In this document: one piece after another, positions 24,842 through 29,840 of the stretch
Layout: every line of letters starts with the position of its first letter
Numbering within the stretch: position 1 is the stretch's first letter
Notes under the pieces: model-generated
The model's input: only the letters and a program-made list of their open reading frames with translations
Told to the model about the DNA's origin: nothing
Database searches by the model: none
Origin: Thioalbus denitrificans
GTDB taxonomy: Bacteria > Pseudomonadota > Gammaproteobacteria > DSM-26407
Length of the DNA stretch: 64,000 nucleotides
Assembly (NCBI RefSeq): GCF_003337735.1
Contig: NZ_QPJY01000002.1
Coordinates: 124,001 to 188,000, forward strand
Direction of reading: 5' to 3'
Position numbers and translations under genes: made by a program

Positions 24842-25757
24842 ACCGGTGGCCGCTCACCCCTGCAATCCTTCCCGCCGTGCCTTCCTGACCGTTCTCGCCT
24901 CCGGCGCGGCGCTGGCGGCCTGCGGCGACTGGCGGGCGGGCAGGGGAACCCCGCGGGTGGGGCTCGCGCTGGGCGGCGGGGGCGCTCGCGGGCTGGCCCA
25001 TATCCCCTTCCTGGAACTGCTCGACGAGATGAAGGTGCGCCCCCACCGCATCGCCGGCACCAGCATCGGCGCGGTGCTTGGCACCCTCTACGCCGCCGGC
25101 CGCAGCGGACGCGAAATCAGGGAGTTGATGACCGGCCTGGTGGGCGACGGGCGGGGGGAGGGGCTGCTCCATGGCAGCTACCGCTGGATCGAGTACATCG
25201 ATCTGGCCATGGGCGGTGGCGGGCTGCTCGATACGGACGATTTTCTGCAATTTCTGCATGGAGCACTCCGTCACGACACCTTTGCCGAGCTCGCAATTCC
25301 GATGCGGGTCGTTGCCGCCGACCTCTGGAGCCGGGAGCCCGTCGTTTTCTCTTCGGGTGAGATGTTGCCGGCCCTCAAGGCGACCATTGCCCTGCCGGGA
25401 CTGTTCAAGCCGGTGCCGTACCGTGGGCATCTGCTGGTGGATGGCGGTGTCGTCAATCCTGTGCCCTGGGATCTGCTGGATGACTGTGATGTGGTGGTGG
25501 CGCTCGACGTTTCTGGCCAGAGAACCCACCAGCGGGGTGAAGTCCCGGGTGTCATCGAAAGCGTCTTTCTCAGCTTCCACGCCATGGAAGAGGCGCTGGT
25601 GGCGGAGAAGCTTCGCTGCAGCCGGCCCGACCTCTACATCAAGCCGCCCATCAAGGACATCCGGGTCATGGATTTCCAGCGGGCAGGGGAGATCTACGAC
25701 CAGGCAAAACCTGCCCTGCAGGAACTGCGCTGGGGATTGAAGCGGCTGCTGGGCTGA
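24822..25757 (+). CDS. RssA-like patatin phospholipase with Tat/lipoprotein signal
   Basis: 311 residues. The N-terminus SRRAFLTVLASGAALAAC combines a twin-arginine motif with a lipobox, so it is probably a lipid-anchored envelope protein. The patatin motifs follow at once: LGGGGARGLAHI (oxyanion), GTSIGAVLGTLYA (nucleophile Ser) and DGGVVNPVP (Asp). This makes it a compact RssA/YchK-type esterase. The start overlaps the preceding Lon-N gene, which points to translational coupling. It is the second patatin in the window and is unrelated in architecture to the large one at 13.5 kb. Confidence 0.85.
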   Translation: MAAACTEPVAAHPCNPSRRAFLTVLASGAALAACGDWRAGRGTPRVGLALGGGGARGLAHIPFLELLDEMKVRPHRIAGTSIGAVLGTLYAAGRSGREIRELMTGLVGDGRGEGLLHGSYRWIEYIDLAMGGGGLLDTDDFLQFLHGALRHDTFAELAIPMRVVAADLWSREPVVFSSGEMLPALKATIALPGLFKPVPYRGHLLVDGGVVNPVPWDLLDDCDVVVALDVSGQRTHQRGEVPGVIESVFLSFHAMEEALVAEKLRCSRPDLYIKPPIKDIRVMDFQRAGEIYDQAKPALQELRWGLKRLLG

Positions 25758-26096
25758 GTCCCGCCGCCAGCCAACGAGGGGGGGACGGCCGCCAGGGTCA
25801 GGGTACGCTGCGGCAGACTCGGGTCCGCTCTCCCTTTCACCGGGCCGTTTCCGGGAGGGGGGAATCGTGCCGGGGATGCTCCGTCCACCTGCGTTGATGA
25901 GCCCTGCGGCCGGAACGGAGCCCGCGAGAGCCTCGCCGATGCGATTGACCGTCCACCCCTGGGCATCGCCCGCGGCAGCGTCCCCGGATCCCAGTCGCAC
26001 CAGCGCTGTGCACCCATGCTGTTCCCGGCACCGTTCGGGGGCAGTGTGCGCTTCAACAAAAAATCGTAACTAACAGAATTGTTTGATATTTAAAGA
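25758..26096. other. Intergenic region with AT-rich upstream sequence
   Basis: No gene was found. The last 50 nt are strikingly AT-rich for this genome (26060-26096) and include AACA-gaat-TGTT (26072-26083), a possible activator site upstream of the sigma-54 promoter. Confidence 0.45.
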
Positions 26097-26113
26097 TTGG
26101 CATGGTGGCTGCA
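26097..26113 (+). promoter_or_regulatory. Sigma-54 (RpoN) promoter, -24/-12 type
   Basis: The sequence TTGGCATGGTGGCTGCA fits the consensus YTGGCACG-N4-TTGCW at 11 of 13 defined positions. It keeps the invariant GG (26099-26100) and GC (26111-26112) at the required spacing. An AT-rich tract lies directly upstream, as expected for IHF or activator binding. The predicted start site is near 26124. Confidence 0.65.
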
Positions 26114-26123
26114 TCTGTTCCTG

Positions 26124-26201
26124 TGCACGCATGTGCTGACTTCATTGTCATGGCTTGACCTCCTCGCTTCCTTGCCCGCCGCACCCCGGCGGGTTTTTTT
26201 T
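26124..26201 (+). ncRNA. Candidate sigma-54-dependent small RNA (about 78 nt)
   Basis: Begins about 12 nt after the -12 element and ends in a T-run. The predicted RNA has a 5' hairpin GCAC-GCAT-GTGC (26125-26136), a second hairpin TGAC-TTCATT-GTCA (26137-26150), an unpaired linker TGGCTTGACCTCCTCGCTTC containing the anti-Shine-Dalgarno string CCTCC, and a terminator. This layout is like Qrr- or Gly-type regulatory RNAs. A 18-codon frame at 26102-26158 overlaps the promoter and is therefore not the product. I do not recognise a known RNA family. It is convergent with the PEP-carboxykinase-like gene. Confidence 0.5.
26175..26201 (+). terminator. Strong intrinsic terminator
   Basis: Stem CCCGCCG (26175-26181) / CGGCGGG (26187-26193) with a 5-nt loop, followed by eight consecutive T. 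It works on the plus strand only. It could end both the candidate small RNA and any read-through from the patatin gene 418 nt upstream. Confidence 0.85.
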
Positions 26202-26297: not shown

Positions 26298-29200
26298 TCA
26301 GGCCGCCGCCGGCACCTCGCCGCCGCGCTCGGCGCTGTCGCGGACCGGGCGCATGGGATCGGCGCCGATGGTGCCGCGCAGGCTCTCCAGGTACTCGGGG
26401 CTCGCCACCCATTCCAGCCTCTCCCGTGCCTGTTCCAAACGTTCGGCAATCCGCAGGCGGGCGGCCACGTCGGCATGGCTCTCCTGGGCCAGGAACGTCT
26501 CCAGGCTCAGTACATGGCGCTGCCACAGCGCCTGGTCGCGGGCCTGCTTGGTCTCCAGCCGCTCGCGGTACCAGTCCGAGGCGAGCAGCGACTCGCGGGT
26601 GAACAGGGCGCGGATCTCCGGGTGGTGGACATCCTTTCCCCGGTAGTGCCCCTCGGCCATGATGTGCAGCAGTGCGCGCAGGGGCGGACAGGCCTCATCC
26701 ACGCTGCCGTCCTCGAGGTAGCGCCGGGCCACCCGCTGCTGGGCCTCCACGATGTTGTCCACGCCGTCGACGAAGGCGTCCAGATCCTGGGTCTCCGGGC
26801 GCAGGACGGACTCGTTGAAGACCGCCGTGGGACTGTCGAAGATCTTGCCCATGAAGCGGTGCACGAAACGGTCGGTGATGCGGTAGCCGAGCCGGCTGGC
26901 CGCCACCATGCGCCCCCGGTGCTCGAAATCCCGCACCGGCTCCAGGTAGCCGCGCTCGGTGAGCCAGGCGGGATCGCGTTCGCGCTCGGTGAGACGGCTC
27001 CAGATCTCCGGGATCAGCAGGCTGACGTCGTGGTCCACCCGCATGCGGGGACCGATGTGGCCGGCGGCGCTGGAGTAGCCGGCGTAGCCGGTGAGGATGT
27101 AGGAGACCAGGGCGTTGTTGAGGTCCGCCGTGGGGCGCAGGGCGTTGAAGGGCCCCTTGGTCAGGGCTCCCTCGCTGCCGGCGCCGGTGGTGGAGGGGGA
27201 CTTGCCCGTGAGGCTGCAGATGAAGTCCATGAACAGCTCGGGCAACTCCTGGTAGTGAATCGGGTTGTAGACCGCCAGCGGCCGGATGCCGGGCTGCGGC
27301 GGGTTGTTGCGCCGGCCGGTCAGCACCGCGTTCACCGGGTTGCAGACGGGCCGCTCGAGTGCGACGCGCCGGTGCAGGCGGATCCCCATCTCCGCCACGT
27401 AGCGGCGCACCGGGTCGGAGAGATCCGGGCGCAACTGCAGGTAGCGGGGGTTCTTGCTCGGCTTGCCGTCCACCAGCCGCGGGTGGGCGGAGGAGACCAC
27501 GTAGCCGGTGCCGGCGTCGTAGGCGCCGCGCAGCAGGTTCTGCATGGGCGGGGTGAAGGCCTGGAAGCCCACCACGTCCTCCACGATATCCGCCAGCGCC
27601 TCGCCGTGCAGGGGTTCGAAATTGGCGATGAAGTTGCCGTGCCGGGCCATGTCCGCCTCGGTCTGCTTGTCGAAGCCGGGGTGGATGGCCTCGTCGGGGC
27701 GCTGGAACAGCCGGAACTCGCAGTTGCTCACCAGCTTCACGCTGGGATGGCCGGCGGCGTTGGGCGAGCAGTTGCACAGCGCCTCGGTGGGCACCACCAC
27801 GGAGGCGCTGATGTCGTCCTCCATCTGCACTTTCTCCGCGGCGATGAAATCCTGGCGCACCTTGAACACCCGCCAGGCGCTGGAGCCCTCCAGGCCCACC
27901 CGCAGGTAGGAGCCCACCAGCTTGCGGCCGTTCATCTTCAGCTCGTGGCCGGGGCTGCCGTTCACCACGTCCACGGAGAGCCGCTCGCGCCAGCGGTCGC
28001 CCCACTCGGGGCGGTAGACGCGCTTGATGATGAAGGCGAGCGCCCGGATATGGTCGGGGATGGTTTCCAGCCAGGCGTTGTAGGCGTCGGTATTGGCGGG
28101 CGAGGGGGTGAGCAGCTTGATGACGGAGCCGAGGCTGCGCTCGGGGCTCAGCGGCTTGCGGCTCGGATCACGGTCCTCGTGGGCGAACTCGGGCTTTAGA
28201 CGGTCGCTGTAGTCGCGCTCGAAGATGGCCTCGACGATATCGAGATCCTCCTCCAGATCGCCCACGTAGAGGGAGCCGTAGATGACCGCGTCATCGATGG
28301 ACTTGGAGATCTCCGACTTGCCGCCGCCGGAGACGGTGCAGGGCTTGTGGCAGAAGGTGCCCTCGGGCTCGGTGCCCAGCAGCCGCCAGGAGGGCGCCCC
28401 CGGGTGCTTCTGCATCTCCACCCGGTAGCCGTTGGGCTGCATGTAGATGTGCCCGGGGCGCAGTTTGAGGGTCTGCTTCACGCCGTCCCGGTACCAGGTG
28501 ATGGTCTGGGCGTTGAGGTCCATGCGCAGGTCCTGGGGCACGTAGATGACCTGCGGGAAGCGCTTGTCAACCGCGTAGCCTTCGGGCTGGACGTCCATCA
28601 CCGGGGCGAACATCCCCGTCATCTCGTCGAAGCTGTAGCCGCTGGCGCGGGCGCGGCTGTCCACGCCGTACTCCTCGCCGTGGTTGCGGCGCACGAAGAC
28701 CAGCGCGCCGCCGGCATGCTCCTCCTCGGCCAGCCCGTAGAGGTTGGCGGCGAAGCTGATCTGGGTCTTCACCTCCTTCTTGCAGTAGCCGAAATAGTTG
28801 TCGGCCAGCAGGGTGACGATGACCCCGGAGGCGTCACGGGCGGTGATCTTGAAGGAGTTGCCGTCGTTGTAGCGCTCATCGGCCTCGCGCCAGCACATGC
28901 CGTCCGCGCGCTGGCGCTCGCTGGCCTCGTCCCAGTGGGGCAGGCCCAGCTCGCGCTTGGTGAAGCCGACCAGGTGGGGCGCGAGAATGACGCAGCCGGT
29001 GTGGCCGGTCCAGTGCTCCACGTCCAGGGCCGCGTCGTTGTCCGCCAGGTAGGGATTGCCGGCATTGCCGAAGATGCTCTCCACGAAATCCAGGTTGCTC
29101 ACCAGGCGGCCGGGAGCGAAGAAGCGGATCTCCATGCTCTTGGCCACATCGCGGCCGGGAATGGCGGGACAGACCAGCGGCCGGAGCAGAAGCGAGGCGA

Positions 29201-29840
29201 ACATGGCGGCCGGTTCCGGCTGGCCGGTGGCGAAGGGCAGATGCAGCAGTTCCTCCGGCGGGGACAGGGCCGCGGCGAGCAGGCGGGCGAAGACCGCCTT
29301 CGGCACCGCCTTCTTGTCGCCCGGGATGGGCAGGCCGTCCTCGGCCACGTGGAATGAGCCGGCAGTGGTGCGCCGGTCGCTGGCCGGGTTGTGCAGTACG
29401 CCCTGGCGCACCCGGTAACTGCTGAGGATGTCGGAGTTGAACGCGTCGCGGCCGAGGGGCAGGGAGAGCTCCCGCGCAACCCCGTGGCGGTCCAGCACGA
29501 TGGTGTTCCCCGGGAGGCGCGGCACCGCCCCCGGCCCCAGGTCACCGAGGTAGCGTTCCAGAAACGCCTGGATGCGGCGGTCGGGGGGGCAGAGGTAGTC
29601 GGAGAGCAGGCGGCTCTTCTCCCGGTAGCTCTGCAGCAGGCTGCGGGCGACGGAGAGGAATTCGGCATCCTCCTCGGCAGGGCAGATGGGTTGGCCGGAG
29701 GAGGCGAGCTTGAGGTTGATGTAGAGCTGCAGACGGCGCCGGCTCCAGCTCTCGTCCTCCTCCCCGGTCTTCAGTCCCAGGGCCTGTTCCAGGTCATCGA
29801 GGCCGGTCCAGTCGGTCAGCAGGCGGTTGTGATCGTGCAT
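26298..29840 (-). CDS. Probable pyrophosphate-type PEP carboxykinase (PPi-PEPCK)
   Basis: 1180 residues. Family knowledge: PPi-dependent PEP carboxykinases, known from Entamoeba and propionibacteria, are unusually long (about 1100-1200 residues) and unrelated in length to ATP- or GTP-forms. This protein has that length and a P-loop-like CTVSGGGKSEISKSI (about residue 510), within the phrase TFCHKPCTVSGGGKSEI. Other conserved-looking runs are NDGNSFKITARDASG and TGKSPSTTGAGSEGALTKGP. The enzyme would interconvert oxaloacetate and PEP using PPi/Pi. My assignment rests on recollection of the family, not on a search. It stands alone, 247 nt from the next gene. The weak AGAAGAA ribosome site supports the given start. 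Confidence 0.65.
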   Translation of the reverse strand: MHDHNRLLTDWTGLDDLEQALGLKTGEEDESWSRRRLQLYINLKLASSGQPICPAEEDAEFLSVARSLLQSYREKSRLLSDYLCPPDRRIQAFLERYLGDLGPGAVPRLPGNTIVLDRHGVARELSLPLGRDAFNSDILSSYRVRQGVLHNPASDRRTTAGSFHVAEDGLPIPGDKKAVPKAVFARLLAAALSPPEELLHLPFATGQPEPAAMFASLLLRPLVCPAIPGRDVAKSMEIRFFAPGRLVSNLDFVESIFGNAGNPYLADNDAALDVEHWTGHTGCVILAPHLVGFTKRELGLPHWDEASERQRADGMCWREADERYNDGNSFKITARDASGVIVTLLADNYFGYCKKEVKTQISFAANLYGLAEEEHAGGALVFVRRNHGEEYGVDSRARASGYSFDEMTGMFAPVMDVQPEGYAVDKRFPQVIYVPQDLRMDLNAQTITWYRDGVKQTLKLRPGHIYMQPNGYRVEMQKHPGAPSWRLLGTEPEGTFCHKPCTVSGGGKSEISKSIDDAVIYGSLYVGDLEEDLDIVEAIFERDYSDRLKPEFAHEDRDPSRKPLSPERSLGSVIKLLTPSPANTDAYNAWLETIPDHIRALAFIIKRVYRPEWGDRWRERLSVDVVNGSPGHELKMNGRKLVGSYLRVGLEGSSAWRVFKVRQDFIAAEKVQMEDDISASVVVPTEALCNCSPNAAGHPSVKLVSNCEFRLFQRPDEAIHPGFDKQTEADMARHGNFIANFEPLHGEALADIVEDVVGFQAFTPPMQNLLRGAYDAGTGYVVSSAHPRLVDGKPSKNPRYLQLRPDLSDPVRRYVAEMGIRLHRRVALERPVCNPVNAVLTGRRNNPPQPGIRPLAVYNPIHYQELPELFMDFICSLTGKSPSTTGAGSEGALTKGPFNALRPTADLNNALVSYILTGYAGYSSAAGHIGPRMRVDHDVSLLIPEIWSRLTERERDPAWLTERGYLEPVRDFEHRGRMVAASRLGYRITDRFVHRFMGKIFDSPTAVFNESVLRPETQDLDAFVDGVDNIVEAQQRVARRYLEDGSVDEACPPLRALLHIMAEGHYRGKDVHHPEIRALFTRESLLASDWYRERLETKQARDQALWQRHVLSLETFLAQESHADVAARLRIAERLEQARERLEWVASPEYLESLRGTIGADPMRPVRDSAERGGEVPAAA

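Follow-up and report, generated by a model that had tools for sequence, protein, structure and literature searches.

The question raised by this locus is whether the DNA between a patatin gene, which stops at 25757, and the convergent gene that ends at 26298 carries a gene of its own, and, if so, what would switch it on and what its product would do. Within the window, that is, the whole 64-kb stretch of DNA that was analysed, the patatin gene is followed at 25757-26060 by some 300 bp of GC-rich intergenic DNA in which neither a strong terminator nor any gene was recognised. The features of the locus are listed below, and of these the promoter, the pair of enhancer sites and the terminator can be read directly from the DNA. 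Taken together, they quite probably constitute a stand-alone gene for an NtrC- and sigma-54-dependent small RNA of about 78 nt, which would be made under nitrogen limitation and would act in trans by base-pairing.

25996-26012, no strand assigned: upstream NtrC-like site CGCACCAGCGCTGTGCA, 10/12 to TGCACC-N5-GGTGCA, 102 bp before the promoter start
26027-26043, no strand assigned: second NtrC-like site GGCACCGTTCGGGGGCA, 10/12, 71 bp before the promoter start
26060-26097, no strand assigned: AT-rich tract between enhancer and promoter, by base composition
26076-26088, minus strand: IHF-like site GAATTGTTTGATA, 8/9 specified positions of WATCAANNNNTTR, between enhancer and promoter
26098-26113, plus strand: sigma-54 -24/-12 promoter TGGCATGGTGGCTGCA, full match to the consensus TGGCAYRNNNNYTGCW
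26124-26201, plus strand: putative small RNA, about 78 nt long, its start set 12 nt past the -12 C
26155-26173, plus strand: pyrimidine-rich linker TTGACCTCCTCGCTTCCTT with CCTCC, predicted to be mostly unpaired, a possible seed
26174-26201, plus strand: intrinsic terminator GCCCGCCG-CACCC-CGGCGGGT-T tail, a GC-rich hairpin followed by seven to eight T

The promoter is the firmest of these elements. Its GG (26099-26100) and GC (26111-26112) have the spacing correct for -24/-12, which bears out the preliminary description, where the two had been placed 12 nt apart, and this is the sole strict match to TGGCAYRNNNNYTGCW in the window, against 0.09 expected by dinucleotide shuffling. Genome-wide, the same pattern is matched 29 times and its reversed control 6 times, and therefore most matches in this genome are taken to be real promoters. 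The majority of the other sites that were fetched lie 50-150 nt ahead of a gene, for instance glnA, glnK, nifH or nifV (named from their translations, with glnA confirmed by the cut-offs of a curated model), and from these promoters the presence of rpoN in the genome can be deduced. The AT-rich tract, also claimed previously, is equally clear, with an A+T content of 75-80% at 26060-26099 vs about 20-35% in the surrounding region.

Sigma-54 promoters require an enhancer-binding protein. The preliminary description did not look for an activator and so missed what is the best evidence at this locus, namely the pair of NtrC-like sites, spaced 31 bp apart and with two mismatches each. The strict NtrC motif gave no match upstream of the 26098-26113 promoter, and the motif was relaxed after that scan had failed and the GCACC halves had been seen, the null counts being given accordingly: ten places in the window score at least 10/12, these two among them, while just one pair of such strength at a spacing of 30-32 bp occurs in the window and one more in 959 kb of contigs taken from other genomes. 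Both this species and its congener have sites of the form GCACC-N5-GGTGC at their glnA and glnK promoters, and at glnA the two species show an equivalent arrangement, at -109 and -79. The glnA, ntrB and ntrC genes are adjacent in the genome, with proteins above the NCBI curated cut-offs, so that the enhancer expected of a sigma-54 small RNA is found here together with an encoded NtrC, albeit in sites two mismatches off consensus. Because of the relaxation of the motif, the pair is strong circumstantial evidence for NtrC control, short of proof. The IHF-like site is one of nine as good in the window. No NifA site (TGT-N10-ACA) was found upstream of 26098-26113. Elsewhere, in the nif cluster (L123-L126, G000:C2:391400-413751), the sigma-54 promoters each have such a site upstream, and the organism is probably a diazotroph.

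The terminator lies on the strand of the promoter, 61 nt past it and about 50 nt past the expected start, and under strict settings the scan gave no other match on the two strands of the window and no match at all in 30 shuffles; the hairpin with eight T that had been reported some 60 nt on is thus upheld. It could be argued that this terminator serves the upstream operon of nadA, a LON domain gene and the patatin gene, and that the sigma-54 site is inactive or does no more than bind polymerase, with no separate RNA. After the patatin gene there is indeed no other strong terminator, and sigma-54 is able to bind without transcription; however, more than 400 nt separate the patatin stop codon from the terminator, and a silent site would not readily account for an enhancer pair and an IHF-like site that are both in register with a perfect promoter, all of which makes this explanation unlikely. 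As to a short coding transcript or a leader peptide, an 11-codon GTG frame (26123-26158) does begin at the predicted 5′ end, but it is the longest closed frame between promoter and terminator, no start there has a Shine-Dalgarno sequence, no gene follows on the same strand and the terminator comes soon after, so that a coding function is very improbable and the earlier statement that no gene frame fits the interval is confirmed. The promoter, then, is followed by a short stretch without coding capacity that ends in a terminator, as expected of a small RNA gene.

The convergent gene (26298-29840, minus strand) encodes an 1180-aa PPi-dependent PEP carboxykinase that scores 1191 bits to PDB 8e1u and matches no Pfam or NCBIfam model; its relatives number at least 566 in bacterial genomes, the best being mostly from sulfur oxidisers and methanotrophs. 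A cis-acting role of the sigma-54/NtrC RNA can be proposed from this arrangement, in which it would overlap the 3′ end of the PEP carboxykinase transcript and limit or end it by antisense pairing or by transcription interference, given that the identity of the gene is firm and that no minus-strand terminator is found from its end at 26298 down to 25757. Nevertheless, the RNA sits past the stop codon of that gene, where Rho-dependent termination would suffice, and a cis role is in any case compatible with one in trans; we regard it as rather unlikely to be the explanation of the locus.

Returning to a trans-acting small RNA, its start was placed at 26124 by the rule of 12 nt after the -12 C, with 26123-26125 equally possible. 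The predicted minimum-energy fold of 26124-26201 has two hairpins of 4 bp each, followed by an open linker and by the terminator, and is better than that of shuffled sequences (z about -2.3) because of the terminator, since the 5′ part without it is ordinary (21% of shuffles are as stable, and 6% for the two hairpins alone). The CCTCC (26159-26163) is mostly unpaired in this fold and appears by chance in 5% of dinucleotide and 14% of mononucleotide shuffles. In other words, the two hairpins and the exposed CCTCC linker of the preliminary description are both recovered in the predicted structure, but the hairpins are no better than chance and CCTCC is frequent in sequence of this kind.

The same description had supposed that the RNA pairs with ribosome sites through this CCTCC. 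Sites complementary to the linker with up to two mismatches number 575 genome-wide vs 497 for the reversed control, that is, 1.16 times, and among the 29 one-mismatch sites inspected there was no convincing ribosome binding site. In a duplex scan of 19 mRNA starts, nifH gave the best relative duplex, formed between CUCCUCG of the RNA and CGAGGAG, the Shine-Dalgarno sequence of nifH; its z of -2.05 does not reach significance once corrected for 19 tests. Because the target search is near background and the nifH duplex is not significant, an anti-Shine-Dalgarno role of the linker can be offered as a hypothesis that is at most plausible, and the earlier claim gains nothing beyond that plausibility.

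The search for relatives of the RNA is conditioned by the genomes at hand, as the family of the host has one other species in the collection, the congener, with an assembly that is 87% complete and in 510 contigs. This assembly contains neither the RNA nor nadA, the patatin gene or the PEP carboxykinase gene, and since it is incomplete and also without the neighbouring genes, the absence of the RNA from it is uninformative. The covariance search proposed previously was run across 369 genomes of the class and gave no homologue; neither did blastn in these and in the congener, which returned nothing but fortuitous pieces of terminator or of coding sequence. The single-RNA covariance model did produce several full-length matches in the class (E down to about 3e-5), which were rejected as homologues because all that they share is CTCC and a terminator, with no sigma-54 site upstream of any of them. 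The Qrr, GlmY/GlmZ and CrcZ families are present in Rfam, and none of them has a covariance match in the window at gathering score; for Rfam as a whole the window gave 0 matches at the gathering threshold and, at a relaxed one, chance-level matches with nothing credible. Nor did the PEP carboxykinase neighbourhoods of 80 named loci contain a unit of sigma-54 site and terminator. As a separate observation, in unrelated gammaproteobacteria intergenic CTCC(TCC) occurs beside or just before a strong terminator (L138 in G202, L139 in G087, L143 in G210 and L140 in G014), and these segments could belong to further small RNAs of the anti-Shine-Dalgarno type, in this case lacking a sigma-54 site; three covariance matches in one further genome (G026, C3:254778-255109 and C5:113853), two of which are separated by about 270 bp, are probably repeated terminator-like elements.

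The scan of sigma-54 sites also revealed a second candidate in the same genome (G000:C4:177471; L133 1501-1616), with an orthologue in the congener (L121, G001:C456). A sigma-54 promoter there precedes a putative RNA of about 90 nt, which carries CATCCTCC in the loop of a hairpin and is closed by a terminator; NtrC-like matches of 8-9/12 recur at -102 and -71, as at the first locus, and the candidate has no match in Rfam. Between the two species the RNA body is 97% identical, as against 82-83% for the intergenic flanks and 50% for the spacer to the start, a conservation that argues, without proving it, for sigma-54 RNAs being genuine and under selection in the genus. Homology between the two RNAs was considered and is not credible, their sequences being dissimilar. 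A broader conjecture, which we hold to be improbable, is that the lineage has a few NtrC/sigma-54 RNAs, the present one and the second candidate, both with CCUCC, forming a nitrogen-starvation riboregulon with ribosome-site targets such as nifH; if true, it would link nitrogen status to nitrogenase synthesis at a post-transcriptional level.

The most probable sequence of events at this locus is as follows. Under nitrogen limitation, phosphorylated NtrC would bind at 25996-26012 and 26027-26043, possibly with the AT-rich tract bent by IHF, and the sigma-54 polymerase would start near 26124, to be stopped at about 26201 by the Rho-independent terminator, leaving an RNA of about 78 nt. This RNA would offer a pyrimidine linker in single-stranded form and a U tail of the sort that Hfq could bind, and it presents the traits of a putative Hfq-dependent trans-acting small RNA, in that hfq is encoded in the genome and the tail is U-rich. 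Its action would most likely be in trans by base-pairing, as in NrsZ and NfiS. The sigma-54-dependent RNA of about 78 nt put forward at the outset is therefore well supported, by a promoter and a terminator that are unique in the window, the NtrC-like pair, the IHF-like site, ntrBC and hfq. An unannotated RNA is thereby given a specific putative regulator (NtrC) and a condition (nitrogen limitation). Its host, a probable diazotroph, has sulfur oxidisers as relatives, and little work has been done on small RNAs in such organisms. The same analysis also leads to a second candidate sigma-54 RNA, the body of which would be under selection.

Among known systems, the Qrr RNAs of Vibrio are likewise short sigma-54 RNAs with an upstream enhancer pair and a terminator, activated by LuxO or SypG (PMC10162802), in place of which there are NtrC-like sites here, and no Rfam match. 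CrcZ and CrcY share the sigma-54 promoter and work by binding Hfq/Crc (PMC8871633), whereas the present RNA has no A-rich Hfq/Crc motifs (7 A in 79 nt); nor does it contain any GGA, a motif of which a Csr/Rsm sponge has several in its loops. The alpha-r14 sRNAs such as NfeR1 also have an unpaired anti-Shine-Dalgarno motif, but in three hairpins each with CCUCCUCCC (PMC10746234), while here a single CCUCC lies in the linker, which places the RNA outside that group. The nearest in regulation are NrsZ of Pseudomonas aeruginosa, an NtrB/C- and RpoN-induced sRNA of at least 226 nt, processed, encoded in the ntrC-PA5126 spacer and carrying ACAGGCAG (PMC9308961), and NfiS of Pseudomonas stutzeri A1501, a sigma-54-dependent ncRNA of a diazotroph, which lacks an NtrC site and has nifK as its target (PMC6606865). 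With the former our RNA has in common an intergenic position and a predicted NtrC/sigma-54 control under nitrogen limitation, although it is of about 78 nt, is without the ACAGGCAG motif and has a different genome location; with the latter, a sigma-54 promoter and a nitrogen-fixing host, although with an NtrC-like pair. By the features tested it would belong to neither family: sigma-54 RNAs of nitrogen control are already known as a kind, and the candidate RNA at 26124-26201 is itself new.
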